Both the position numbers and the translations under genes were made by a program. Below, piece by piece: positions 21,087 to 52,636 of a stretch of DNA of 64,000 nt. This DNA is from Candidatus Heritagella gallinarum (GTDB lineage: Bacteria; Bacillota; Clostridia; Oscillospirales; Acutalibacteraceae): positions 1 to 64,000 of the forward strand of contig CAJFNK010000043.1 of the NCBI GenBank assembly GCA_904394685.1, in the 5' to 3' direction. The notes beneath the pieces were generated by a model, which had not been told where the DNA came from, searched no databases, and saw only the letters and a program-made list of their open reading frames with translations. How positions within the stretch are numbered: the stretch's first letter is position 1; every line of letters begins with the position of its first letter.

Positions 21087-21115
21087 TTGATATTATTCGG
21101 GTTGGCTTGTATAAT
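21087..21115 (+). promoter_or_regulatory. Sigma-A promoter of the PP2C/FHA/kinase operon
   Basis: TTGATA (21087-21092), a 17-bp spacer and a consensus TATAAT (21110-21115). The leader to the first start codon (21322) is about 200 nt, with no recognised riboswitch. Confidence 0.78.
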
Positions 21116-21321
21116 TGAAATTAGGGTAAAACTTCAAGTTGCTTTTTTAAAGTCTGATGTATATCGATGTCTGATAACAGAATTGTTTTCTGGATTTGAA
21201 TCGTGGAATTGCAGGCAAAGTGCTGGTATGTATAAATGGTAAAAACTTATGTGAACAGGAAAATGTGGCTTTAAAACCGGCAATGAGAGAATTATTTTCA
21301 GGTAGTGTAGGAGGGAATAGC

Positions 21322-22056
21322 GTGACAGTTCGATATTCTTCAATCAGTAAACAAGGCGGCAGAGAAATCAATGAGGATTCCCTGTATTGCGGTCATAAAG
21401 GGGATTCTTACTGCTTTCTGGTGGCGGATGGATTGGGAGGCCATGGAAAAGGCGAGGTGGCTTCTCAACTGGCTGCCAGCTGCTTTGCAAAAACATTTTT
21501 AGAAACGCAGGAAGAAACCGAGCGTTTTTTATGTCAGGCGTTTACTGCGGCGCAAGAGGAAATCCTAAAGGAGCAGAAAGCAGCCGGCCTGATGAATGAT
21601 ATGAAAACCACTGGCGTTGCGCTGGCAATTATCCATGGAGTGGTACAGTGGGCGCATGTTGGCGATTCCCGTCTGTATGCTTTCAAAAAAAATAAGGTGG
21701 TTCAGCGCACATTGGATCACAGTGTGCCTCAGATGCTGGTATTGGCGGGCGATATCCGAGAAAAACAGATTCGTAACCATCCAGATCGGAACCGTCTTCT
21801 TCGTGTGATCGGAGTGGAATGGGAAGAACCCCGATATGTCCTATCGGACGAATATTCCATGGACGAATTTCAGGCATTTTTGCTGTGTTCCGATGGGTTT
21901 TGGGAGCTGATTGATGAAAAAAAGATGGGCTCTTTTCTGAAAAAAAGCAGTTCTCCGGAAGAATGGCTGGAAAAAATGTGTGGACTGGTGGAGAAAAACG
22001 GGAAAGGCCGTAATATGGATAACTATACTGCTGTTGCGGTCTGGCTGGAGGAATAG
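21322..22056 (+). CDS. PP2C-family protein phosphatase (first of two)
   Basis: A 244-residue PPM-type Ser/Thr phosphatase. The metal-binding motifs are intact: INEDS near the N-terminus, VADGLGGHGKG (~35), HVGDSRLY (~112), LLCSDGFWELI (~190) and DNYTAVAV near the end. I chose the GTG at 21322 because GTAGGAGGGAATAG precedes it and the PP2C fold begins there; the longer in-frame ATG at 21196 adds a sequence without homology. It is first in an operon with a second PP2C, an FHA protein and two Ser/Thr kinases. It is expected to reverse phosphorylation by those kinases. Confidence 0.92.
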   Translation: MTVRYSSISKQGGREINEDSLYCGHKGDSYCFLVADGLGGHGKGEVASQLAASCFAKTFLETQEETERFLCQAFTAAQEEILKEQKAAGLMNDMKTTGVALAIIHGVVQWAHVGDSRLYAFKKNKVVQRTLDHSVPQMLVLAGDIREKQIRNHPDRNRLLRVIGVEWEEPRYVLSDEYSMDEFQAFLLCSDGFWELIDEKKMGSFLKKSSSPEEWLEKMCGLVEKNGKGRNMDNYTAVAVWLEE

Positions 22057-22058
22057 GA

Positions 22059-22847
22059 TTGAAAAAGCTGGTACCACAGATGGCGGGGATGTCTTTACTT
22101 GGTACCCGCCAGGAGCAGCAGGACTCTTTTGGCATCATTCAGGAAAAGGACAGAGGAATTGCGGTGGTATGCGATGGGATGGGCGGCCTGAGCTTTGGGC
22201 AGCAGGCCAGCCAGGGCGCTGTTTCCATCCTTTTGGAGCGGTATCACAACAAACCAAAGGAATGTCCCTTTCCTGACTTTTTTCAGGAGTCGCTGGAATA
22301 TATGGATGAGTATGTATACAAGCTAGGACGCTCAGGGACACAAGGGCGTTCGGGAACAACGGTAGTGGCGGTTGCCATAGAGGAAGGGAAACTCTATTGG
22401 CTCTCTGTGGGGGACAGCCGTCTTTACCTGCTGCGTCAGGGCGCTTTGTTGTGTGCGACTCAAGATCACAATTACCGGCTGTTGCTGGATCAGCGTCGGG
22501 AGCAGGGAACGATTTCACCGCAGGAGTATGAGCGGGAGATGGAACGGGGAAACGCTCTGGTAAGTTATATAGGAATGAAAGGGATTTCTTTGATGGATGG
22601 TAACCCCTCTCCATTTCTGTTACAGGCACAGGATACGCTGCTGTTGATGAGCGATGGCGTATACCGTGTACTTTCACAAGATGCTATCCGGACCATCGTA
22701 GAAAGTTCTGGGAGTGCATCTGAACTGGCGAGGCATCTGTGTGAGCGGGTGGAGCAGGAAAGTCGCCCCAATCAGGACAATGCAACTGTAATTGCTATCA
22801 GGATCGAGGAGGAACAGGGAAATGAAGCTGACAAAATGCAGCAATAA
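22059..22847 (+). CDS. PP2C-family protein phosphatase (second of two)
   Basis: A 262-residue PPM-type phosphatase, clearly diverged from its neighbour. Motifs: GTRQEQQDSFG (~14), VVCDGMGGLSFGQQAS (~32), LSVGDSRLYLL (~122), LLMSDGVYRVL (~193) and NQDNATVIAI near the C-terminus. All metal ligands appear present. The TTG start at 22059 has GGAGGAATAGGA upstream and lies two bases after the previous stop. The 3' end overlaps the FHA gene by 26 bases. Two phosphatases for two kinases suggests a paired arrangement, which is inference. Confidence 0.92.
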   Translation: MKKLVPQMAGMSLLGTRQEQQDSFGIIQEKDRGIAVVCDGMGGLSFGQQASQGAVSILLERYHNKPKECPFPDFFQESLEYMDEYVYKLGRSGTQGRSGTTVVAVAIEEGKLYWLSVGDSRLYLLRQGALLCATQDHNYRLLLDQRREQGTISPQEYEREMERGNALVSYIGMKGISLMDGNPSPFLLQAQDTLLLMSDGVYRVLSQDAIRTIVESSGSASELARHLCERVEQESRPNQDNATVIAIRIEEEQGNEADKMQQ

Positions 22848-23643
22848 CCATTATTATGATGCGGATCAATATTTATCATGCCCCCACTGCCAAAAAGCGG
22901 GAATGACGGCGGAGCAACCGATGAATGAACAGCCACCGTTGCAGTCTGAGAGCAGGCGGGGATTTTTTTCTTCCATGTTTCATTCCCGGCGTGGAAAAAC
23001 CGAAGGAGGGGATTCGGATCAAACGGTTTACCTCCAGCCCTCGACGCCATTTGAGCCGGAACCGGTCAGTCAAACAGAATATATGCCGCAGCCAGGGGGA
23101 CTTGTGCAGCCGGGGATTCCTGTGCAGCCGGAGCCAGTTTCTCCGCCTTCGCCAGTCCCGGTGCAGCCTGCGGATGATGTAACCGTGTCGCTTCAGGATG
23201 CTTTCCGGGACGCTATGACCCCGGCCCAGGAAGAATATGCGGCAGAAAAAAAGGACGACCCGGATAAAACGCTGTCTTTTTATGATGCCGGAGGAACAGA
23301 ACCGGTGGTAGGCTGGCTGGTATGTGTGGAAGGCGCCTATCTGGGCGAGGGCTTCCCTCTCAAAGCTGGACGAAACCTGATTGGGCGTTCTATGAAAATG
23401 GATGTTCCGTTGGTAAAAGAGTCGGGAGTTTCCCGTGAACGTCATGCTTCTCTGATTTTTGAACCGAAAAAAAGGTTTTTTCTGGTGCAGCCGGGAGACA
23501 GCAGCGGATTAACCTATCTGAATGAGGAGTTGCTGCTGGTTCCTGCGGAAATTCACGACTTTGATCTTTTACAGCTTGGCGGCTGCAAGCTGGTTTTCCG
23601 GTCGCTTTGTGGCCCCTCTTTTAGTTGGGAAAAATATATTTGA
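22822..23643 (+). CDS. Zinc-ribbon FHA-domain protein
   Basis: A 273-residue soluble protein. Residues 1-25 are a short zinc ribbon (Cys6, His10, Cys20, Cys23). Residues ~30-165 are a Pro/Gln/Glu-rich linker. Residues ~170-265 are a forkhead-associated domain with RNLIGRS, VSRERHASL and a terminal FDLLQLGGCKLVF strand. FHA domains bind phosphothreonine peptides, so this protein probably reads the output of the adjacent kinases. The ATG at 22822 is preferred over 22792 because the zinc ribbon begins there and AGGAGGAACAGGG precedes it. Thr residues in the linker are possible phosphosites. Confidence 0.9.
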   Translation: MKLTKCSNNHYYDADQYLSCPHCQKAGMTAEQPMNEQPPLQSESRRGFFSSMFHSRRGKTEGGDSDQTVYLQPSTPFEPEPVSQTEYMPQPGGLVQPGIPVQPEPVSPPSPVPVQPADDVTVSLQDAFRDAMTPAQEEYAAEKKDDPDKTLSFYDAGGTEPVVGWLVCVEGAYLGEGFPLKAGRNLIGRSMKMDVPLVKESGVSRERHASLIFEPKKRFFLVQPGDSSGLTYLNEELLLVPAEIHDFDLLQLGGCKLVFRSLCGPSFSWEKYI

Positions 23644-23654
23644 GGCGGTAGAAT

Positions 23655-25631
23655 ATGAATAAACGATGTGTGAATTGTTTTGAAGAATATGATGATGGAT
23701 ATCAGAACTGTCCTCACTGCGGATATGTGGAAGGTTCTGCTCCATCAGAAATCTATCATCTGTTTCCGGGAACCGAGCTGGCAGGCCGGTATATCATCGG
23801 AATGGTGCTGGGATTTGGCGGTTTCGGTATTACCTATAAGGCGTGGGATAAAAAACTGGAAACAGTGGTGGCGATTAAGGAATATTATCCCAGCGGCCTC
23901 GTCAACCGTGTCCCGGGAACCAGGCAGGTGATCCTGTTTGCACGAAACAGGCTGAACGAATATCAGCATGGCCTGACAAGATTTCTTGACGAAGCCCGGA
24001 GCATGGCAAAATTTAATTCTCATTCCAATATTATCAATATCTTTGAATACTTTGAAGAAAACAGTACGGCTTATATTGTAATGGAGTTTCTGGACGGCAT
24101 TACGCTGAGTGCGTTTTTAAAAAGTAACCGTATGGACTGCGACTCTGCACTGGATGTGGCCCGGAAAATCTGTACTGCGCTGAAAACCATTCACAAAGCG
24201 GGTATTATTCACCGTGATATCAGCCCGGACAATATTTTCCTGTGTACCAATGGGGCGATAAAGCTGATCGATTTCGGCGCTGCCCGTTTTTCCCGTGACG
24301 AAGACCGTTTGATGACGATTATTCTCAAACCGGGATTTGCGCCGCCGGAGCAATATGAAAAAATCAACGCTCAAGGCCCCTGGACCGATATTTATGCTTT
24401 GGGCGCTACCCTCTACCTGATGGTTACAGGCGTGAAGCCGGAAGAATCCACCAACCGGAAAATATCGGATACACTTCCACCGCCTCACCAGCTGTGTCCG
24501 GAGATTCCGGAATATGTGAGCAATACCATTATGAAAGCTATGGCAGTGGATAAACATCTGCGGTTTTCTTCGGTGGAGGACTTTGAAAAGGCAATTGACC
24601 AGAAGAAAAAGGTGGTCCCGCTGAAAAAAGAAAAGCGCCGCCGGAAAGCCCGACGCTTTATAACGGTTTGCACCTCTTTGCTGGTAGTGCTCGGTGCGGT
24701 TACTGTATTTTTGTTCCAGTGGAACCAACAGAAGGAGGAGGAAACCTTGCCGGATTCCACCCTGCAAATCTGGTATGTCAAACAGGAGAGTTCCAGCGGT
24801 GAGGATGCAAAGGGCAAGGCGTTTCAGGAAATTATCGGGGAATTTACGCAAAGCTACCCCAATGTTACCATTACCGCATTGGGAGTAGAGGCAGATGAAT
24901 ATGCTTCCAGGCTGGAAGCAGCCGTTAAGAACGGGGAAGGCCCTCAGATTTTCGAAAATGCCGAAGGGGTGACGGTAGACACTGCGGATCTTTCGCCGGT
25001 GCTGTCTTCTGAGGAAGCAGGAGAGTGTTATTTTCTGAATCAATATGACCAGTATTTTTCCAGCAGGGAGGTTTTGCCGCTGGGATTTGTTGCGCCGGCG
25101 ATTTATGCCAACACCACATTGGCCTCTCCAAAAAGCGCAGAAGTGACAGAGCTGTCAGCGCTGCTGGGCTCAGATCAGAAAATAGCGGTGCGTCGGGATC
25201 TCCAAACCGTTTTTGAACAGGCGTTTGGCAGCGGGGCCTTACAGGATTCCCGTGTTTCGGTAGTAGATGATATCGAACCCTTTGCAAACGGCCAATTTGC
25301 ATTTTATTTTTCTGATTCCTCAGAATTTCTACAAGTGCAGAACCGGCTCCCGGCTCGGTATCAAGTGCTTCATCTGGCAGGAAAAAGCGTTCCGGCTTCC
25401 TTTAGGCACCTTTATCAGATTCGGAAGGATATCAGCGGCGATGAGGGAAAATCTGCGATTCGGTTTATGCAGTTTTTGCTCAGCGAAAGCGCACAGGATA
25501 CCTGGAATATCCGGAATATCCGGAATACGGCTCCACTAAACCGGAATGTGCTGGGAATTATAGGGGACATTTATCGGGAGCTGGAAGGGTTTTATGATAC
25601 CGTAGACAGCTACACTTTTGAAAAAAAGTAA
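23655..25631 (+). CDS. Zinc-ribbon Ser/Thr kinase with solute-binding-protein-like ectodomain
   Basis: A 658-residue receptor kinase. Residues 1-25: four-cysteine zinc ribbon (Cys5, Cys8, Cys19, Cys22). Residues ~40-310: Hanks-type kinase with glycine loop GFGGFG (~53), VAIK Lys75, catalytic loop HRDISPDN (186-193), DFG Asp206, and APPEQY at the end of the activation segment. The usual lysine two residues after the catalytic Asp is Ser190. One transmembrane helix spans ~335-357. Residues ~366-658 lie outside and look like a type 1 extracellular solute-binding protein: QIWYVKQE, GKAFQEIIGEFTQSYPNVTI, and a C-terminal SAIRFMQFLLSESAQDTW as in sugar-binding proteins. A sugar or peptide ligand is inferred. 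Eleven bases separate it from the FHA gene. Confidence 0.88.
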   Translation: MNKRCVNCFEEYDDGYQNCPHCGYVEGSAPSEIYHLFPGTELAGRYIIGMVLGFGGFGITYKAWDKKLETVVAIKEYYPSGLVNRVPGTRQVILFARNRLNEYQHGLTRFLDEARSMAKFNSHSNIINIFEYFEENSTAYIVMEFLDGITLSAFLKSNRMDCDSALDVARKICTALKTIHKAGIIHRDISPDNIFLCTNGAIKLIDFGAARFSRDEDRLMTIILKPGFAPPEQYEKINAQGPWTDIYALGATLYLMVTGVKPEESTNRKISDTLPPPHQLCPEIPEYVSNTIMKAMAVDKHLRFSSVEDFEKAIDQKKKVVPLKKEKRRRKARRFITVCTSLLVVLGAVTVFLFQWNQQKEEETLPDSTLQIWYVKQESSSGEDAKGKAFQEIIGEFTQSYPNVTITALGVEADEYASRLEAAVKNGEGPQIFENAEGVTVDTADLSPVLSSEEAGECYFLNQYDQYFSSREVLPLGFVAPAIYANTTLASPKSAEVTELSALLGSDQKIAVRRDLQTVFEQAFGSGALQDSRVSVVDDIEPFANGQFAFYFSDSSEFLQVQNRLPARYQVLHLAGKSVPASFRHLYQIRKDISGDEGKSAIRFMQFLLSESAQDTWNIRNIRNTAPLNRNVLGIIGDIYRELEGFYDTVDSYTFEKK

Positions 25632-25655
25632 AAACAAAAAAGAGAGGGTGATATC

Positions 25656-28600
25656 GTGGATATTTTTTGCATGGGCTGTATGGAAAAGTTCAGCGATGAA
25701 TATCAGGTTTGTCCCTATTGCGGCTATATTGTGGGGACAAAAGCGGCAGAAGCGCTTCATATTGAACCGGGAAGTGTTTTGCATGACCGTTATATTGTAG
25801 GGCGGGTTCTGGGTTTTGGCGGATTTGGGATTACCTATATCGGCTGGGATGCTCTGCTGGAGCAGAAAGTAGCCATTAAAGAATATCTTCCCAGTGAATT
25901 TTCTACCCGTATGCCCGGTGTGACGCAGGTAACTGTATTTAATGGCGACAAAAAAGAACAGTTCCGGGATGGGATGAAGCGGTTTGTTGACGAGGCCAAA
26001 CGTCTGGCACGATTCCATCAATGCGATGGCATCGTAAAAGTGTTCGACAGCTTTGAGGATAACAACACCGCCTATATCGTGATGGAATATTTGCAGGGAG
26101 AAACGTTGGCGGAGAGGCTGAAACGGGAAGGAACCATTCCGCCGGAGCAGGCGGTTGAAATGCTGATCCCAGTCATCCGTTCGCTAAAAGTCGTTCACGC
26201 AGAGGGGATTATTCACCGGGATATTGCCCCCGACAATATCTTTATCACGCTGGACGGCCAGGTAAAACTCATCGACTTTGGTGCTGCCCGGTATGCGACT
26301 ACTTCTCACAGCCGAAGCCTGACGGTGATTGTCAAGCCGGGGTATTCTCCAGAAGAACAATACCGGAGCCGTGGTGACCAGGGGAGCCATACCGATACCT
26401 ACGCCATTGGAGCGGTGTTGTATAAAATGATTACCGGGGTCACGCCGCCGGATGCGCTGGAACGGCGTGCGTTTTTTGAAACCAAGAAAAAAGATATTTT
26501 AAAGCCGATTTCCAAATACTGTAAGTCGATTGACAGCAATCTGGAAACGGCCATTCTCAATGCAATGAATGTGCGGATTGAGGACCGCACCCCAGATATG
26601 GAACAGCTGGAAAATGAGCTTTGTTCAGAGGAACCGGTTAAACGCCGGGAGGGGCGCATCAAAAAGATCGATATTTTAAAATGGCCTTTGTGGGCCAAAC
26701 TTTCGGTTCCGATTGCCGCCGCCGCTGTAATTACGCTGAGTGTCCTGTTTTCCATGGGGATTATCGGGTTTGATTCCGGACTGCGGAAAAGTATGTACAT
26801 ACCCGAAGGAATGTCCAGAGTCCCCTCGATTATCAGTGAGGAAATCAAGGCAGCAGAGGACAGACTGGAAGAAGCAAGCCTTTTATATACGATTGTAGGA
26901 AAAGAATATTCTTCCGTGATTCCGAAAGATCTGATTTTAAGCCAGGATGTTTCGGCTGGTACGGTGGTTTTGGAAAACACCAATGTGAATGTGAAAATCA
27001 GCGGCGGTGCTGAAATGTCCACGGTTCCCAGCGTTACTGGTCTGGAACAGGAAGACGCTGTTAAGCAGCTGGAGGAAGCCGGTTTTTCGGTTTCCATCCG
27101 GGAAGAGTATCACAATACGATTGCGGCCGGAGCCGTTATATCGCAGGGAAGCTCGGAGGGCGGCGAGTTGGCTTTGGGAGAAACTGTGGAGATTGTGATT
27201 TCCAAGGGGCGTGACCCGGATCAGAAGCAGGAAGAAAAAATGGTGAAGGTTCCTGAATTTGTGGGGATGAAATATAGTGAAGCCTTAAAGCAGGCGGAAA
27301 AGCTTGGAATCATTTTGGAGATATCTCAAAAAGAATACAGCACCCAGTATGCAAAAGACGAGGTCATTTCTCAAAGTGTAGAAAAAGGGCAGGAAATTTT
27401 GAACAGCAATGTAATCCAGCTGGTAGTTTCCCTTGGAAAAGAGGAACTGAAAGTCCCGGATGTACAGTACATGACGGAAGAACAGGCTCGTAAGCTGTTG
27501 GGAGAGCGTGGCTTGGGCGTAAAAGTGACCTATCAAACCAGTGAAACCGTTGCGGCACAGGTGGTCATGTCCCAGTCTCCGGAAGAAGGAGCCATGGCAG
27601 AGCCGGGAGACGAAGTCACACTGGTAATCAGCAAGGGTTCCGCTCCGTTTGATTTGCCCAATGTCGTGGGAAAAAGTGAAGACAGCGCCCGTACAACCCT
27701 TATAGGAAAAGGGCTGGCTGTATCGGTGAGCTATGAATACAGCGACGAAGTTGATTCAGGAAAAGTCCTTCGGCAAAGCCCAGGCGCAGGTTCTTCTGTT
27801 TATAAGGGCAGCCAGGTGAAACTGGTGGTCAGCAGCGGAAAAGAAATTAAAAAAGTTCCTAATGTGGTAGGCCAGGCCGAGGGAGATGCCCGGAGCAAAC
27901 TGGAAGGACAGGGATTTCGGGTAGAAATTAACGACGCATACAGCAATACCGTAGAACGCGGCAAGGTAATTTCACAGGTTCCCGGCGGCGGAAGCAGTCA
28001 GGAAAAGGGAGCTACGGTGATGCTGACCATCAGCGCAGGTAAGGAACCCATCTCTGTTCCCAAATTGACGGGAAGCACCCAGTCGGCAGCTTTGGAAACG
28101 TTGGAGCGTCTGGGACTGAAAGCCAGTTATTCAAGCCAGTACAGCGAAACCGTACCGAACGGTACTGTCATTTCTCAAAACCCATCGCCCGGAAGCACCC
28201 GGTATCAGGGAGACACCATCACTTTTGTGGTGAGTAAGGGACGGGAGCCGATCACGGTTCCCAGCGTAACCAGACAAAGCGAGTCGTCGGCCTCCAACGC
28301 CATCACCAGCAAGGGCCTGCGTGTCAGTGTCCGTCGGGAGTACAGCAGCAGCGTAGCATCAGGCTATGTAATTTCACAAAGCCCGTCCGGCGGCAGCATC
28401 CGCTATCGGAATGATACCGTCACGATTGTGGTCAGCAAAGGAAAGGCACCAAACCCGGTCACAAGTGTTGGCCTGAACAAAACCAGCGCCCGGCTGATTG
28501 CCGGAAAGACTTTGCAGCTGATTGCAACGGTGAATCCCTCTGACGCCGATAATACGGACGTTACCTGGAAATCGAGCAACACCAGCATAGCGACCGTGAG

Positions 28601-29687
28601 CAGCAACGGTTTGGTGACAGCCCGTGCCCAAGGAAGCACCACCATTACAGCCACAGCGGTAGATGGAGGAAAGAGCGCCTCCTGTACCATCACGGTTGAC
28701 CCGGTTTCCATTTCGAGAATTCAGGTTTCCAATCCTCCCAGCAAAACGACCTATTATGTGGGAGAAAGTCTGAACACCAGTGGTATGGTGCTTCGAATCG
28801 AGTACAATGATGGCAGCTCCAAAACCGTCAGCAGTGGCTTTACCTGTTCCCCCACAACCTTTAGCAGCAGCGGCAGCCAACAGGTGAAGGTCAGCTATCA
28901 GGGATTCAATGATTATTTTTATGTTACAGTTAGAAAAGACAGCATTTCCCTGAGCAAAAGCAGTGGGCATCTGGATATTACGGACAGTAGTGTACGAATT
29001 GTTGATTACGATTCCGTTTTGTATGTAGGCGACAACAGCAACGATAATGGCAGTTATCCTACTATGCAGACATTGACCTGTGCCCCTACTTATAAATCGA
29101 AAAGTCTTGAGTTTAAGGTTTATACCAATTCGTCCAGTTCCCAAATAGAAGTTTATTCAGAGAATACTTCTGTTGCTACCTGTAGTTCTTCTACCAGTGG
29201 CACGACAACCACAGTGACCGTAACAGCAAAGCCTGATTTGTCTGCGAATACAACTCATACTACACGAATCCGGATTAAACTGAATGGGGAGTTGCAGAGT
29301 ACCTACTTTACAATTTCATCTTACCGTCCCAAATCACTCACATTGTCATCCAGCAATTCTTCTATTTTGAAGGTAAATGGGGACCGGATCTATGCTGTGG
29401 ATAACGGAACGGCAACACTGACGGTGACGACTTCTGAAGGCCATACAGATAGTGTCCAAATCAGCTGCCGTATGCCCTCAACTTACAGGGTAAGCGCAAG
29501 TTCTGTTGGCAAAATTATGAGATTGGGACCAGGAACGGGGAATAGCAATCTGGGAAAAACAATCCCGACAAATGCGGTTGTATCGCTGCTGGATATCAGC
29601 TATAATGCCGGTGAAGATCGAATCTGGGGAAAATGTAGCTATGGCGGCGTTATCGGATGGTTTGAAATGTGGCATCCGGTTGGATAA
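25656..29687 (+). CDS. Zinc-ribbon Ser/Thr kinase with eight PASTA repeats, Ig-like domains and SH3-like end
   Basis: A 1343-residue receptor kinase, about twice the length of ordinary PrkC/Stk1. Residues 1-25: zinc ribbon (Cys5, Cys8, Cys19, Cys22). Residues ~40-310: kinase with GFGGFG, Lys75, HRDIAPDN (187-194) and DFG Asp207; the catalytic-loop lysine is Ala191. Transmembrane helix ~345-372. PASTA repeats fill ~387-931: one diverged, then seven clear ones each opening with 'VP.V.G' and closing with 'V(V/I)SKG'. A Big2 Ig-like domain (~933-1015) and a second Ig-like domain (~1016-1092) follow, then a beta-rich region and an SH3-like domain (~1277-1343, MRLGPGTGNSNLG...GWFEMW). PASTA repeats bind muropeptides or peptidoglycan in known kinases. 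It ends the operon. Confidence 0.92.
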   Translation: MDIFCMGCMEKFSDEYQVCPYCGYIVGTKAAEALHIEPGSVLHDRYIVGRVLGFGGFGITYIGWDALLEQKVAIKEYLPSEFSTRMPGVTQVTVFNGDKKEQFRDGMKRFVDEAKRLARFHQCDGIVKVFDSFEDNNTAYIVMEYLQGETLAERLKREGTIPPEQAVEMLIPVIRSLKVVHAEGIIHRDIAPDNIFITLDGQVKLIDFGAARYATTSHSRSLTVIVKPGYSPEEQYRSRGDQGSHTDTYAIGAVLYKMITGVTPPDALERRAFFETKKKDILKPISKYCKSIDSNLETAILNAMNVRIEDRTPDMEQLENELCSEEPVKRREGRIKKIDILKWPLWAKLSVPIAAAAVITLSVLFSMGIIGFDSGLRKSMYIPEGMSRVPSIISEEIKAAEDRLEEASLLYTIVGKEYSSVIPKDLILSQDVSAGTVVLENTNVNVKISGGAEMSTVPSVTGLEQEDAVKQLEEAGFSVSIREEYHNTIAAGAVISQGSSEGGELALGETVEIVISKGRDPDQKQEEKMVKVPEFVGMKYSEALKQAEKLGIILEISQKEYSTQYAKDEVISQSVEKGQEILNSNVIQLVVSLGKEELKVPDVQYMTEEQARKLLGERGLGVKVTYQTSETVAAQVVMSQSPEEGAMAEPGDEVTLVISKGSAPFDLPNVVGKSEDSARTTLIGKGLAVSVSYEYSDEVDSGKVLRQSPGAGSSVYKGSQVKLVVSSGKEIKKVPNVVGQAEGDARSKLEGQGFRVEINDAYSNTVERGKVISQVPGGGSSQEKGATVMLTISAGKEPISVPKLTGSTQSAALETLERLGLKASYSSQYSETVPNGTVISQNPSPGSTRYQGDTITFVVSKGREPITVPSVTRQSESSASNAITSKGLRVSVRREYSSSVASGYVISQSPSGGSIRYRNDTVTIVVSKGKAPNPVTSVGLNKTSARLIAGKTLQLIATVNPSDADNTDVTWKSSNTSIATVSSNGLVTARAQGSTTITATAVDGGKSASCTITVDPVSISRIQVSNPPSKTTYYVGESLNTSGMVLRIEYNDGSSKTVSSGFTCSPTTFSSSGSQQVKVSYQGFNDYFYVTVRKDSISLSKSSGHLDITDSSVRIVDYDSVLYVGDNSNDNGSYPTMQTLTCAPTYKSKSLEFKVYTNSSSSQIEVYSENTSVATCSSSTSGTTTTVTVTAKPDLSANTTHTTRIRIKLNGELQSTYFTISSYRPKSLTLSSSNSSILKVNGDRIYAVDNGTATLTVTTSEGHTDSVQISCRMPSTYRVSASSVGKIMRLGPGTGNSNLGKTIPTNAVVSLLDISYNAGEDRIWGKCSYGGVIGWFEMWHPVG

Positions 29688-29745
29688 TTTCTAGTCGGAA
29701 TCAGCTGTTAGACAATATTTTCGAAATAGAAATGTTCAAGCAGCC

Positions 29746-29789
29746 GAAAGGGCTTGTTGTCTGTGAGTAGCAGGCGGCAAGCCCTTTTC
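29746..29789 (+). terminator. Terminator of the PP2C/FHA/kinase operon
   Basis: GAAAGGGCTTG (29746-29756) pairs with CAAGCCCTTTTC (29778-29789), about 60 bases after the kinase stop codon. Confidence 0.65.
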
Positions 29790-29830: not shown

Positions 29831-32800
29831 ATGTTCTATCAGGCTGTACAGATTTCTACCGATGGAGAGAACTGGACAACTCTGTTCAATACAGACGCCG
29901 AAGATAAAGGCGGAATTAAGCAGTTGGGAACAAATCCAGAGGGCAAATTTGATGAGATGTTTAACGAATCTGCCGATGGAAACAGCATTGTTTTTGAAAC
30001 CACACCGGTACGATATATCCGTTTCTGGTCAGGCGGATATATGTGGAGCGACGGCCGTGCTGGCGGCAATCAGCCATTGTGGGTACAGCTGGAAGCCTTT
30101 CATAATACCGAGGTGACTTTTGATCCCGGTTATGAAGGTGGAGAAAACTGGACGGTTTCCGTCCCTGTGGGTACTACCGTGCCGCAGCCGGAAATGCCTG
30201 TCCATCCCGAACAGGGGTATGTGTTTGAAGGCTGGATGCTTAATGGAGAGCCGTATGATTTTCAGCAGGAAGTGGACGGCCCTATTACGCTGACAGCAAG
30301 CTGGAAAAAGGTTTCAGTTTATGAGCTGACACTACAATATCACGATGGCGTTACAGAGCCGCAGGTCATTTATGTAACCGAGGGTTCAACTCCGGAGATG
30401 CCCGAAAACCCAGTCCAGGATGGCTACCATTTTGCCGGTTGGAAGCTGGATGGCGCTCCCTATAACCCAACTCTTCCGGTGACTGAAAATATGACGCTGG
30501 ATGCCTGCTGGGTAACCGCACAGGCCGACGATGCTGTGCGTATCAGTGCTGGGCAGGTAGATTATTATCTGAACTCCAAGGGACAAATTACCAATATTGT
30601 AAGCAAACAGGATGGTATTGATTATGCTCCCGAAGGACATCAGGATTCCAATCTGGTTTCTTTGATTGCCAACGGTGAGCACCATGTCCCAAGCCATATG
30701 AGCTATGAGGATGGCGTACTGTATTTTGAATTTGCCTCTATTAATGCACAAGTAGAGGTATGCTTGGAGCAGAAGGGTGCTTATACAACCTTTACAGTGG
30801 AGAATGTGATTGTTCCACCCAACGTAAGCTTGGAGACACTGCTGTGGGGACCCATTAAAACCACGATCTCTGAAGTAGTGGGAGAGTCTCTGGGCGTGGC
30901 CTATAATCATGAGTTTGCTTTGGGAATTCACGATTTGAACGACAAAACAATTGGCGGCTGGCCGCAGGAATGGACGGAAATTACCTATCCGCCCGGATAT
31001 CCCAACCAGGATAACACCTATTTGTCTGGTATGTCCTGGCAGTCTCAGGCTGCTGTGGTGGCTCCGGCTAAAACCGAGTCGAATCCCAATGCCAGCGGTT
31101 GGGGCGGAAGCTTTTTGCAGTCTTTTACCAATCAGTATACCCAACCTACCGAACATGTTGTTGCTGGTTATCCCTGGGTACGGAACGATAAAGTAGATCA
31201 ATCTAATCCATCTTTTGACTCTTATACAATTGTAGCAAATGAGCAGGTTCCTGCCCTGAAAAATTCTGCATATCCTGAGAATGCTTCAGTAGTAGGTTCT
31301 TCGATAGCACTGTTTGGATGTAAAGCACGGAATATCCTGAACACTGTAGAAGAGATTGAGCTTGGAGAAGATTTGCCGCATCCTACCATCAATGGCGAAT
31401 GGCAGAAAAAGGTACCAGCAGTCCTGTTTTCCGAAATTACAGCCAGTGGAATCAATACAGGAAGTGTTGAGAGAATCACCCAAGCGGCTTCGGAAGCTGG
31501 TATCCCTTATGTGTATGATATGGTTGGTGCAGTAGGTCCCTGGGATTCTAATGGTTCTTATCGGTTTAATTCTTCTTGGGGACATTCTGATTATAATGCG
31601 ATGACACAAATGTGCGAAGTAGCTGCTCAGTTTGGTGTAAATCTGGGCGTTCATTCCATGTCTGACTATGTTGCTAGTGGCTGGGGAAATGATCCTCTAT
31701 ATGTGACTAATTATGGTGCTCATCCTGATTTGGCCTATGCTCAGACAACGGTACTGACCCGTCCAGTATCCAAGAATGACACAACAATTTACATTGCCAA
31801 CGGAAGAAACTTCGACCGTATCAGCGATGCTCCAGGAACAAAATATGTACGGATCGGCTCAGAAATTATTGAATATTCTAGCGTAGAAAAAATCAGCAAT
31901 ACAGAATGGCGACTTAGCGGTTGTACCCGTGGTGTACGAGGAACCGGAAATTATATTTCCGACTATGAAGCCGGTGCTTCTGCTGCAAGATTGTGGCTTT
32001 CTGTGTATGGGGCATTTTTGGGCGGAATTAGCCTGCAAAAGGAGATTGCAGAACGTCAGGCACAGGCATTTAACAATAGTGGTGTCCACAGTATGTCCTG
32101 TGACGGTCTGGAAGATGCTTTTAAAAATGGCTATAACCAGTTAGCTATGAACGAATATGCTTCTACTCTGTATGAAAATTGTACGAGCCGAGATGGCTTT
32201 GTGTTTGTCAACAGTATGATGGCTGCTAATCAGTGGGATATGCTTTCCTATGAAAGCTGGAACCGTTCTGTTCGTGAAAATCTGCCGAACTTTAACAAAT
32301 CAGCTCCGTCTGACCAAGCTGACCCGGTAACGGATTCTCGTGCAGAGATGATGCAGCGCAATTTGTTCCCTTTGCTGTATAATGTCAGCACAGGCGATAT
32401 GCAGTCACTAAATACAGATTTGTCGTTGGTAGTTGCTCTGGACGGCGGCTTTAAGATGGGCGATGTGTCCGGCCTGTCATCAGAAGCCAGAGCCAGCATT
32501 AAGGCTTGGAAGGATGCTGCTACGGCTCATGCTTTCAGCGAACAGCAAAAACAAGACTTCCTCAATGCTTTTGACGCAGATAAGAATACCTCTTGGCGGA
32601 TTACTACGGTAATCGAAGGTGAGGAGTGGACCATTCAAAAGACCGACGCCAGCGGAAATCCGATTGGCGAACCTTTCACAGTAAAAGCTGGTGGAAAACT
32701 TCATGTGGCTGATTGTGAGAATGGTAATGTCGCTACCAGTGTTTCCATTGAAAATGTAACAGGGATTAACCCCGATTATACCAACAAAATCAAAATGGCG

Positions 32801-35143
32801 TTTGCAGGCAGCGTGGCCTTTGCCGCACAGCCGGATGAAACCGTGATTGTAAGCCCTCAAGCCGATGCAGGTTATACGCTGGCTTCCCTCAAGGTATTGG
32901 ACAGCCAAGGCAATGAAGTGGCCTTAACTGAGCGGGAAGAAAGATATGGCAACTATGAGTTTGTGATGCCCGAGGGCGATGTGACCATCCAGCCTGAATT
33001 TGTAAAGGACAGCAAGTATGCTGGTGACGTTACCATTATGGGAACCCCAGAGAAGGAGCCGGAAGGCGAGTTTGCCATTAGCGTTAGTGACAAGGTGGAA
33101 AACGGTACAGTAACGGTAGACAATATGGCAAAAGCCGGCAGTCTGGTTACTATAACAGCGGAACCGGCAGAAGGTTACCGCTTTATGCAGGCCAGCGTGA
33201 TTTGTGAAAATAATGAGGCCGTTATTGTGGAAAGCAAGGACGGAAAAGCACAGTTTATCATGCCGGAATGCCCCGTTACCATTATGGCATGGTTTGTTCC
33301 GCTGCACAGTATAACTGCTGTACAGGCAGAAAACGGCAGCTTGAAAGTGGATGTTTCCAATGCAGCAGCAGGGGACGCAGTGGTCGTTTCCTATCAGGCT
33401 GATTCTGGGTATAAGCTGGTTCCCGGCTCTCTGATTGTGCGGGATGAAGCTGGAAATGGAATCCCTATGACGGTGACCGCAGATACAAATCGGTATGAAT
33501 TTGTTATGCCAGACTCCAAAGTAGAGATTACCGCCAAATTTGAGCAGGCTGAAAGCCGGATGGTCAATACAAGAGGCGGCAGCAAGGGAACGGTGGAAGT
33601 ATCCTCACAATCAGCATATGTTGGAGATTTAGTCACCTTTACTGTGAATGCGGCTGAAGGATGCACGGTCAATTCGGTGTATGTACTGGATAACAGTGGA
33701 AACCAGGCTGCAAAAATGGTGGATAGCAGTGACTTTGCTTTTAACAGTAATCGTGTAGCCGAAGAAGGCTCCACTACTGTCAGCGGTTCATTTATTATGC
33801 CGGACGGTGATGTGACGGTATACGCTTATTTCGACGGTGAAACCGGAAGCGTACTGGAGCATGGACTGGAAATCGGCGAAATGACAGCTTCTACCACTCT
33901 TAATGATGCCAGTTCGGCGGAAAAAGCCCATGACCATGATGAAAATACTGCCTGGAAGTCAAATACAGTGCAGGGTGTCACATGGGACAGCAATATTCAT
34001 TTGGATGTACAGCTCAAAGAAATCGCTTGTGTATCAGAGATCAAATTGATTCCCTATGAGTTGTCCGGGGACGAAATGATTGTCAGCTGTATTTTGAAGG
34101 ATGCCGATGGGAATACATTGGCCGTCAGCGAAGAACAAAAAAAATATGCAGGCGAGATTTTTACATTTACTTTTGAAAACATTGAAAATGTTGCCAGTGT
34201 AGAGGTTCGGCCTCAGGAAATTAAAGGACATGCGCCTAACCATCTGGGAATCAGTGAAATAGAGATATACGGTACAACTGAGCCACCAGTACAGCCAGAC
34301 AAAACCCTGCTGCAAAAGACCTATGACTATGCACTGACTTTGAGCACGGATGGCGTGACCGACAGTGCAAAGGCATACTTTGAAAAAGTACTGTCCGAGG
34401 CCAAAGCTGTTTTAGAGAATTCGGCAGCCACTCAGGAAGAAGTGGATACAGCATTGGACAATCTGCTGGAAGGCATCTGGGGATTGGGATTTGTACAGGG
34501 CGATAAGACCATGCTGGAGCAGGAGATCGCCAAGGCGGAGGCTATGATTGTCAATCAGGACAAATATGTACAGGACAACTGGCAGCAGCTGGTGGATGCT
34601 CTTGAGGCGGCAAAGAAAGTGATGGCAGACGGGGACGCCATGGAAGAAGATGTACAGCCAGCAGCAGAAGCTTTGCTAGACGCAATTCTGGCGCAGCGGT
34701 ATAAGGCAGATAAGTCGATTCTGGAAGAGTTGATAAAGGAAGCAGAAGAAACCGAACTGAACGGCTATACAGCAGAAAGCGTCGCAGTATTTATGGCTGC
34801 TTTGCAAAATGCAAAGGCAGTTCTGGCAGACGAAGGATTAAGCGAAGATGACCAGGGAGTAGTGGATGAGGCAGTGAAAGATCTGAAAGCCGCAATCAAG
34901 AATTTGAGCGCTGAAGATGGAAATTCCGATTCTTCCAAACCCGATGATGACAAGGATGATGGAAACACTGACAACGGCACATCTTCCGGCAGTTCGGACA
35001 AGGACGACAGCAATAACAGCAGTACAGACAAAGCTCCCACTACTGGAGACAATACGGTTATCTGGATATGGGTAGTAACTGCGTCTGTTTCCCTGATACT
35101 GGCCGCACTGGTTATGAAACTGCGTAGAAGAGAAACCTTCTAA
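29831..35143 (+). CDS. 5'-truncated giant cell-wall-anchored surface protein
   Basis: An open frame of 1770 codons without internal stops but with no signal peptide and no ribosome site. The frame is closed by a stop at 29810, just past the upstream operon's terminator. It begins inside what looks like a discoidin-type domain (ISTDGENWTTLF, 1-93). Then come two InlB B-type repeats (~95-235), a large catalytic-like region of unknown family (~240-960), four diverged InlB-type repeats (~980-1335), an F5/8-C domain (~1343-1480) and three FIVAR-type helical repeats (~1490-1695). An Asp/Ser linker leads to a sortase-type tail: KAPTTGDN (~1734), a membrane helix, then RRRETF. The family suggests a secreted glycan-degrading adhesin. 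Without an export signal it is probably non-functional, a recent pseudogene, or rearranged. Confidence 0.75.
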   Translation: MFYQAVQISTDGENWTTLFNTDAEDKGGIKQLGTNPEGKFDEMFNESADGNSIVFETTPVRYIRFWSGGYMWSDGRAGGNQPLWVQLEAFHNTEVTFDPGYEGGENWTVSVPVGTTVPQPEMPVHPEQGYVFEGWMLNGEPYDFQQEVDGPITLTASWKKVSVYELTLQYHDGVTEPQVIYVTEGSTPEMPENPVQDGYHFAGWKLDGAPYNPTLPVTENMTLDACWVTAQADDAVRISAGQVDYYLNSKGQITNIVSKQDGIDYAPEGHQDSNLVSLIANGEHHVPSHMSYEDGVLYFEFASINAQVEVCLEQKGAYTTFTVENVIVPPNVSLETLLWGPIKTTISEVVGESLGVAYNHEFALGIHDLNDKTIGGWPQEWTEITYPPGYPNQDNTYLSGMSWQSQAAVVAPAKTESNPNASGWGGSFLQSFTNQYTQPTEHVVAGYPWVRNDKVDQSNPSFDSYTIVANEQVPALKNSAYPENASVVGSSIALFGCKARNILNTVEEIELGEDLPHPTINGEWQKKVPAVLFSEITASGINTGSVERITQAASEAGIPYVYDMVGAVGPWDSNGSYRFNSSWGHSDYNAMTQMCEVAAQFGVNLGVHSMSDYVASGWGNDPLYVTNYGAHPDLAYAQTTVLTRPVSKNDTTIYIANGRNFDRISDAPGTKYVRIGSEIIEYSSVEKISNTEWRLSGCTRGVRGTGNYISDYEAGASAARLWLSVYGAFLGGISLQKEIAERQAQAFNNSGVHSMSCDGLEDAFKNGYNQLAMNEYASTLYENCTSRDGFVFVNSMMAANQWDMLSYESWNRSVRENLPNFNKSAPSDQADPVTDSRAEMMQRNLFPLLYNVSTGDMQSLNTDLSLVVALDGGFKMGDVSGLSSEARASIKAWKDAATAHAFSEQQKQDFLNAFDADKNTSWRITTVIEGEEWTIQKTDASGNPIGEPFTVKAGGKLHVADCENGNVATSVSIENVTGINPDYTNKIKMAFAGSVAFAAQPDETVIVSPQADAGYTLASLKVLDSQGNEVALTEREERYGNYEFVMPEGDVTIQPEFVKDSKYAGDVTIMGTPEKEPEGEFAISVSDKVENGTVTVDNMAKAGSLVTITAEPAEGYRFMQASVICENNEAVIVESKDGKAQFIMPECPVTIMAWFVPLHSITAVQAENGSLKVDVSNAAAGDAVVVSYQADSGYKLVPGSLIVRDEAGNGIPMTVTADTNRYEFVMPDSKVEITAKFEQAESRMVNTRGGSKGTVEVSSQSAYVGDLVTFTVNAAEGCTVNSVYVLDNSGNQAAKMVDSSDFAFNSNRVAEEGSTTVSGSFIMPDGDVTVYAYFDGETGSVLEHGLEIGEMTASTTLNDASSAEKAHDHDENTAWKSNTVQGVTWDSNIHLDVQLKEIACVSEIKLIPYELSGDEMIVSCILKDADGNTLAVSEEQKKYAGEIFTFTFENIENVASVEVRPQEIKGHAPNHLGISEIEIYGTTEPPVQPDKTLLQKTYDYALTLSTDGVTDSAKAYFEKVLSEAKAVLENSAATQEEVDTALDNLLEGIWGLGFVQGDKTMLEQEIAKAEAMIVNQDKYVQDNWQQLVDALEAAKKVMADGDAMEEDVQPAAEALLDAILAQRYKADKSILEELIKEAEETELNGYTAESVAVFMAALQNAKAVLADEGLSEDDQGVVDEAVKDLKAAIKNLSAEDGNSDSSKPDDDKDDGNTDNGTSSGSSDKDDSNNSSTDKAPTTGDNTVIWIWVVTASVSLILAALVMKLRRRETF

Positions 35144-48356: not shown

Positions 48357-48602
48357 TTATTCTCCCAAATACGATTTTACCAGCACCTGTAACAGTTCGT
48401 CACGGTCAATCCGACGGATCAGGCTGCGGGCATTGTTATAGGTAGTGATATAGGTCGGGTCCTCTGAGAGAATATAGCCGACTATCTGATTGATAGGATT
48501 GTATCCCTTTTCTTTTAGTGCATCATAAACCGTTGTCAGAATTCTGCGTATATCGCTTTCACGGTCACGCTCTAATGTGAACGTCATGGTCTTATCAAAC
48601 AT
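48357..48602 (-). CDS. ireB: IreB family regulatory phosphoprotein
   Basis: An 81-residue protein matching IreB (UPF0297) along its length: [39 protein letters not shown] and [22 protein letters not shown]. In Enterococcus IreB is phosphorylated by the PASTA kinase IreK and modulates cephalosporin tolerance and peptidoglycan metabolism. Here it is monocistronic, whereas it often sits with ruvX and other genes. I chose the ATG at 48602 because GGAGGTG precedes it. The window also encodes an unusual PASTA kinase (25656-29687) as a candidate partner, but the ordinary PrkC/IreK homologue probably lies elsewhere. Confidence 0.95.
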
Positions 48603-52374: not shown

Positions 52375-52636
52375 CAAAAAAACCTCCGCCCCGGCAAAGG
52401 GGCGAAGGCGTCAAGTCTCCACGGTACCACCCTTATTTTTTGTAAGAACAGAAGCCCTTACTCTCCTGCGGCAGATAACGGCGCCGTCCGTCAGCCCCTA
52501 ATAACCGGACGTATTCAGGGCTGCCGCTCCAAAGGGAACTTCACTTTTTTTCGTATGCAGGCGTGCTTTCAGCCGGGGACACACCCTCTCTGCTCATCGT
52601 AAAAAAAGCTACTTTCCTTTTTCATTGCGTTATACA
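52375..52636 (-). promoter_or_regulatory. T-box riboswitch of pheST (phenylalanine)
   Basis: On the minus strand the T-box sequence AGGGTGGTACCGTGG (52433-52419) is followed by the terminator CCTTCGCCCC/GGGGCGGAGG (52408-52383) and a T-run. Upstream sequence forms the stem I region. A TTC in AAGTTCCC (around 52538-52545) is the likely phenylalanine specifier. With the promoters at 52643 and 52786 it accounts for most of the 52314-52933 gap. Confidence 0.92.

Follow-up and report, generated by a model that had tools for sequence, protein, structure and literature searches.

A conserved five-gene operon of phosphatases, an FHA protein and receptor kinases in Clostridia, with recurrent linkage to type VII secretion loci

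A compact operon in Candidatus Heritagella gallinarum encodes two PP2C phosphatases, an FHA protein and two receptor kinases, and versions of it are found in several genera of Clostridia. One of the kinases has a complete solute-binding protein (SBP) as its ectodomain. In relatives, the cassette is often located beside a protein-secretion machine, usually a type VII secretion system (T7SS), and therefore it probably tells this machine when to work. Every single part is of a known kind. However, no description of the five-part composition, of an SBP-kinase in one chain or of the T7SS linkage was found in the open-licence literature, although absence there is no proof. The window referred to below is the whole 64,000-nucleotide stretch of DNA that was analysed.

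Organization of the operon

The operon lies on the forward strand, between a promoter-like sequence (TTGATA-17-TATAAT, 21087..21115), which is a pattern match only, to 11 of 12 consensus positions, and an intrinsic terminator of 19 pairs followed by a T-rich stretch (29746..29788). No Rfam element was found in the leader of roughly 200 bases. The first gene (21322..22056) encodes PPa, a cytoplasmic PP2C phosphatase of 244 amino acids (PF13672, E 5.5e-15). Its start is a GTG with GGAGG about 8 nucleotides upstream; the mechanical open reading frame begins earlier, at a TTG. After a gap of 2 bases comes PPb (22059..22847), a second and distinct PP2C phosphatase of 262 amino acids (PF13672, E 6.5e-12), which overlaps by 26 bases the gene for a zinc-ribbon FHA protein of 273 amino acids (22822..23643; Pfam FHA, E 1e-5). 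Gaps of 11 and 24 bases, respectively, precede the genes for receptor kinases K1 (23655..25631; 658 amino acids) and K2 (25656..29687; 1343 amino acids), each with a Pfam Pkinase match (E about 1e-37). The first-pass annotation had proposed a five-gene operon with one promoter and one terminator, and its coordinates, gaps, overlap and single strand all hold.

The same annotation had described the products as two erasers, one reader and two writers. This agrees with the Pfam assignments (PP2C_2 twice, FHA, Pkinase twice) and with active-site residues in all of the enzymes, which can be read from the sequence and were counted in homologues. PPa and PPb each have the PP2C Asp motifs, and K1 and K2 each have the catalytic Lys, HRD and DFG. 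PPa matches the Stp1/IreP family model below its cut-off.

Genes next to the operon encode a beta-galactosidase and a surface protein of large size. The surface protein gene (29831-35143) follows directly after the terminator and encodes InlB-like repeats and FIVAR domains. It begins in the middle of an F5/8-C-like domain, so that its 5' part seems to be missing, and its C-terminal repeats recur in numerous further surface proteins from this genus. An orthologue of the N-terminal part, which would bear on whether the operon split this gene, was not found in the genus. The GC content of the operon (0.49) differs too little from that of the window (0.50) to prove transfer. Elsewhere in the window, a T-box leader (52395-52634, minus strand; 108 bits) precedes what appear, from position and sequence, to be phenylalanyl-tRNA synthetase genes. 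An IreB/ReoM regulatory phosphoprotein is encoded 19 kb from the operon (48357-48602, minus strand; PF06135, E 3e-39). IreB/ReoM is a known substrate of PASTA kinases.

The FHA protein

The FHA protein consists of a zinc ribbon (residues 6-23), a disordered linker, a putative phospho-acceptor at Thr150 and an FHA domain (about 160-262). In the predicted structure, the ribbon has a pLDDT of 93-95 and the FHA domain over 92, and the closest PDB structures to the FHA fold are GarA and OdhI. The codon for Thr150 (23269..23271, plus strand) is part of an acidic-Lys-Thr-hydrophobic motif ahead of the FHA core, in which the Thr is near-invariant (21 of 22 sequences). This Lys-Thr motif can be compared with the ETTS acceptor site in GarA and OdhI (PMC8546545). 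Subfamily similarity and the conserved Thr150 ahead of the domain thus place the protein with the GarA/OdhI FHA switches. The domain retains IGR, VSR and YxN, and has one extra residue between Ser and His relative to the canonical S-x-x-H. Because the His comes one residue later, phosphothreonine binding by the cassette FHA domain is not certain. According to Pfam, the protein is without DUF6382; DUF6382-FHA proteins are encoded by a separate gene in related loci.

The receptor kinases

K1 comprises a zinc ribbon (residues 5-22), a kinase domain (about 45-318), a transmembrane segment (about 335-353) and an ectodomain (354-658), where Pfam detects SBP_bac_1. A model of the ectodomain (24714..25628, plus strand) built from 42 orthologues has a pLDDT of 94.2 and a pTM of 0.91. 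By structural alignment this predicted structure is a complete two-lobed, sugar-type SBP fold, which matches UgpB (4mfi) with a Z score of 21.6 over 284 residues (rmsd 2.9), and many further sugar-binding proteins also align with it. Because the two-lobed fold extends across the whole ectodomain, K1 carries a family-1-type ABC solute-binding protein. Only two ectodomain positions are invariant among K1 orthologues (Y63 and Q261), and both look like parts of generic SBP structural motifs, so the ligand probably varies between species.

K2 consists of a zinc ribbon (5-22), a kinase domain (46-330), a transmembrane segment, eight PASTA domains, Big_2 and Big_3 domains and a C terminus whose sequence appears SH3-like. 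K2 scores 544 bits against the PASTA-kinase model NF033483 (cut-off 450), which identifies it as a PASTA-domain Ser/Thr kinase. The kinases therefore do have different ectodomains, as had been claimed, with an SBP fold in K1 that the earlier annotation had not named and PASTA and Ig-like domains in K2.

Among solved kinases, the kinase domains themselves are most similar to PpkA, the kinase of the type VI secretion system (T6SS) (PMC3953482, PMC6082577). PpkA is the best PDB match for both K1 (181 bits, next 115) and K2 (141 bits, next 110). As controls, PrkC of the same genome has its best matches in Stk1, StkP and PknB, at up to 229 bits, and the TPR kinase of the T7SS locus in this genome has its best in StkP and PknB, at 81 bits. 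Measured against these controls, K1 and K2 have PpkA-type kinase domains.

The zinc ribbons that were noted at the start of three of the five proteins are borne out by their Cys/His patterns, which are C6..H10..C20-C23 in the FHA protein and C5-C8-C19-C22 in K1 and K2. The ribbon is conserved in 54 of 57 FHA, 49 of 54 K1-type and 57 of 58 K2-type homologues. However, it is not specific to this operon. A ribbon is likewise found at the start of a PASTA kinase encoded next to yebC in this genome, and at the start of kinases in most genomes of the same family, where matches begin at residues 2-5. The ribbons are thus a feature of the clade and not a mark of the operon.

Conservation in Clostridia

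An alignment of K1 was scanned against one genome per species (84,980 species), which revealed 71 loci, about 54 with an SBP-kinase. Grouping the loci at 70% identity, with the window included, gave 41 clusters. The exact order PPa-PPb-FHA-SBP-kinase-PASTA-kinase is found in 15 of these, the PASTA kinase adjoins the SBP-kinase in 30, a PP2C is present in 38, and all genes are co-oriented in all 41. Conservation of the gene order across several genera had been named beforehand as support for a dedicated system. Because the exact order recurs among the non-redundant loci, always on one strand, we conclude that the cassette is a real, dedicated system. Its hosts belong to the Oscillospiraceae, Lachnospiraceae, Clostridiaceae and unplaced Clostridia, and many of them apparently come from animal guts.

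In Lachnospiraceae (L070, L072, L074, L075, L085, L101, L103 and L105) the cassette is expanded, and a single run of genes can encode three to five kinases and as many as three zinc-ribbon FHA proteins. A parallel operon in genomes of the same bacterial family as the window (L046, L048 and L051) is composed of a kinase, a zinc-ribbon FHA protein, a PP2C, a protein of about 465 amino acids with two transmembrane segments, and a second PP2C.

Linkage to secretion loci in relatives

The window itself yielded neither T7SS nor Tad genes. The earlier statement that no effector is adjacent and that the output is unknown is correct for the window alone. It does not extend to relatives, in which the cassette is tied to T7SS and, less frequently, Tad-pilus loci. 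Genes for WXG100 proteins, EssC, YukD or DUF4176 are located within 10 kb of the cassette in 11 of the 41 clusters, often contiguously; Tad genes are near it in 5, and 25 have neither within 10 kb. In one arrangement, T7SS genes run into the cassette in an order such as EssC-YukD-WXG100-WXG100-DUF6382/FHA, CHAP or lipase-like effectors, DUF4176, WXG100 pair, PP2C-FHA-SBP-kinase-PASTA-kinase (L142, L143, L141, L139, L140, L149 and L153). In a second arrangement, the cassette is upstream of EssC (L148, L151 and L079). A WXG100 pair directly precedes PPa, in the same direction, in several lineages. No other kinases were detected in the fetched EssC regions of cassette-linked T7SS loci. Some proteins in relatives that had been labelled EssB are DUF6382-FHA proteins according to Pfam, and the label was rejected.

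On a tree of K1, the T7SS label requires about 8 changes, which implies that the linkage recurs and is not a single frozen accident. One labelled locus (L073) owes its label to L145, another copy carried by the same genome, and removing L073 lowers the count by at most one. Gains and losses of the linkage cannot be told apart on this tree. At the level of genomes, EssC exceeds the cut-off in 22 of 47 cassette genomes versus 14 of 200 genomes of the same family (Fisher P 7.5e-10), two sets that differ in taxa and completeness. The other 25 cassette genomes are without EssC above the cut-off; many of these are metagenome-assembled and may be incomplete. Short EssC matches in L075, L096, L105 and others were taken as cross-matches to FHA domains and left out of the count.

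The genome that carries the window

The genome assembly (G000) is 2.2 Mb long and 99.9% complete, and has six kinase matches. A canonical prpC-prkC pair is located on contig C39, apart from the cassette, in accord with the earlier remark that the operon is not this usual pair. The PP2C genes of the genome lie within the cassette, beside PrkC and on contig C78. Contig C78 contains a separate pair (L005) of a kinase and an unusual 452-amino-acid PP2C, with another PP2C nearby.

The cassette and the T7SS of this genome are unlinked. The T7SS locus (L131, C9:8500-28400, and L132) encodes EssC with an FHA domain that retains IGR and S-x-x-H, an FHA protein and its own TPR kinase; no PP2C was found in this stretch of C9. 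It also encodes a zinc-ribbon membrane protein and a vWA protein, and resembles T7SSj. The YukD candidate of this genome, at L131:13024, is uncertain, being marked by a local profile but missed by the Pfam YukD model. Contig C67 (L128, 9696-13277) carries three WXG100 genes and a gene for an Mbeg1-like, lipase-type protein, which is a probable T7SS effector island. Four congeners lack both the SBP-kinase and EssC, so that of five genomes in the genus this is the sole one with either; the co-occurrence fits joint presence, but it is one event.

Possible functions

The PpkA-like kinases and the GarA/OdhI-like FHA protein with its Lys-Thr site suggest that the cassette works like the PpkA/PppA/Fha threonine-phosphorylation pathway of the T6SS, which serves as a precedent (PMC3953482). 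The operon might thus be an accessory, self-contained threonine-phosphorylation cassette that serves a cell-surface machine. K1 would sense a small ligand, probably sugar-like and differing between species, through its SBP domain, for which SBP control of PknG (PMC6069109) is a precedent, and K2 would sense the cell wall through its PASTA and Ig-like domains. Upon a signal, the kinases would phosphorylate the FHA protein at Thr150, and probably also themselves and envelope targets. The phosphothreonine might be read by the protein's own FHA domain, as in GarA and OdhI, or by that of a partner such as EssC or a neighbouring DUF6382-FHA protein. This binding would change the assembly or firing of the machine, and PPa and PPb would reset the phosphorylation state.

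The usual machine would be the T7SS, and here the cassette would work in trans, through the T7SS of contigs C9 and C67. We lean towards such control of T7SS. It is favored by the cassette order, the recurrent linkage, the EssC enrichment, the EssC, WXG100 and lipase-like proteins encoded by the window genome, the co-occurrence within the genus, the PpkA-like kinases and the GarA/OdhI-like FHA protein, whereas the unlinked T7SS with its own TPR kinase in the window genome, the many clusters with neither machine nearby, the few with Tad genes, the cassette genomes without EssC above the cut-off and the displaced His of the FHA motif weaken it. In addition, induction of T7SS expression by phage in E. 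faecalis depends on IreK, a PASTA kinase (PMC7790226), and kinases, phosphatases and FHA proteins are parts of several of the T7SSc-j subtypes (PMC11217815). More tentatively, the T7SS loci whose sole kinases are the SBP and PASTA receptor kinases, with no TsxD-type kinase, could represent an undescribed class of T7SS control in Clostridia, in which a dissolved ligand and the state of the cell wall gate effector secretion via a GarA-like FHA switch.

Alternatively, the cassette might be a general sensor of envelope and nutrient conditions that acts mainly on metabolism or on synthesis of the cell wall, as for PknG-GarA and PrkC/IreK, and its proximity to T7SS or Tad genes might reflect shared accessory islands. 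The clusters that lack both machines are consistent with this explanation, as are the similarity of the FHA domain to GarA/OdhI, the sugar-type ectodomain of K1, the adjoining beta-galactosidase and surface protein genes, and the presence of the PASTA-kinase target IreB in the window. We nevertheless consider it less likely, given that the T7SS arrangement is contiguous and co-directional, with the WXG100 pair right before PPa in several lineages, that EssC is enriched across whole genomes and that K1 and K2 resemble PpkA and not PknB.

It is improbable that the cassette is a controller of Tad/Flp pilus assembly acting through DUF6382-FHA proteins. In L056/L120, L082 and L086 the cassette comes after Tad genes (TadE-like, A24 peptidase), and the presence of a DUF6382-FHA protein was confirmed for L056 and L082. 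Tad genes are also near L061 and L081/L098, but these amount to few of the clusters. Moreover, no credible T2SSE/TadA pilus ATPase was found in the window genome, so the pilus is an unlikely output there, and the idea is nearly refuted for this organism if the completeness of the assembly is right. Finally, an anti-phage defence kinase system, as raised by PADLOC matches of the kinase domains to the PD-T4-6 and mad6 models, is very improbable, because these models respond to Ser/Thr kinase domains of any kind and no methylase, nuclease or other defence partner is present within the operon, and the assignment was rejected as generic.

The signal that triggers T7SS in Gram-positive bacteria is largely an open question, and a cassette located beside T7SS loci makes it directly testable. 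In many gut Clostridia, T7SS loci adjoin a conserved set of a nutrient-type and a wall-type receptor, a reader and two erasers.

Comparison with known systems

The T7SSe and T7SSj subtypes (PMC11217815) likewise have a kinase (TsxD), a PPM phosphatase and an FHA protein (TsxF and TsxJ being the other named components) at T7SS loci that also encode EssC, WXG100 proteins and a YukD-like protein. However, they have a single kinase, whose C terminus is helical or of TPR type, and a single phosphatase. Their FHA protein has an N-terminal DUF6382, which the cassette FHA protein lacks, and the text of PMC11217815 names no PASTA, solute-binding or zinc domain. The window cassette is not at a T7SS locus, unlike those of the T7SS-linked clusters.

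The T6SS PpkA-PppA-Fha pathway also combines a transmembrane PpkA-type kinase, a PP2C and an FHA reader in one secretion-tied cluster, and in the cassette a PP2C and an FHA protein are similarly encoded with the kinases. In contrast, the cassette has two kinases, two PP2Cs, zinc ribbons, and SBP and PASTA ectodomains. It occurs in Gram-positive hosts and is not located in a T6SS cluster, as no T6SS genes were seen within the window by review of open reading frames and Pfam; in relatives it is linked to T7SS or Tad genes instead.

K2 passes the PASTA-kinase model and in this respect resembles PrkC-PrpC, Stk1-Stp1 and IreK. It differs from them in its zinc ribbon, Ig-like domains and gene neighbors. 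The cassette is outside the cell-division/translation region where a PASTA kinase and PrpC are paired, and the genome has its own prpC-prkC.

In the PknG-GlnX-GlnH-GarA system of Actinobacteria, as in the cassette, a solute-binding sensor feeds a Ser/Thr kinase. The N terminus of PknG is a rubredoxin domain that binds metal, and the GarA-type FHA protein has its Thr site in front of the FHA domain (PMC6069109, PMC8546545). The cassette kinase is PpkA-like and has no TPR. Whereas Actinobacteria use three proteins, K1 unites the solute-binding receptor, the membrane anchor and the Ser/Thr kinase in one chain.
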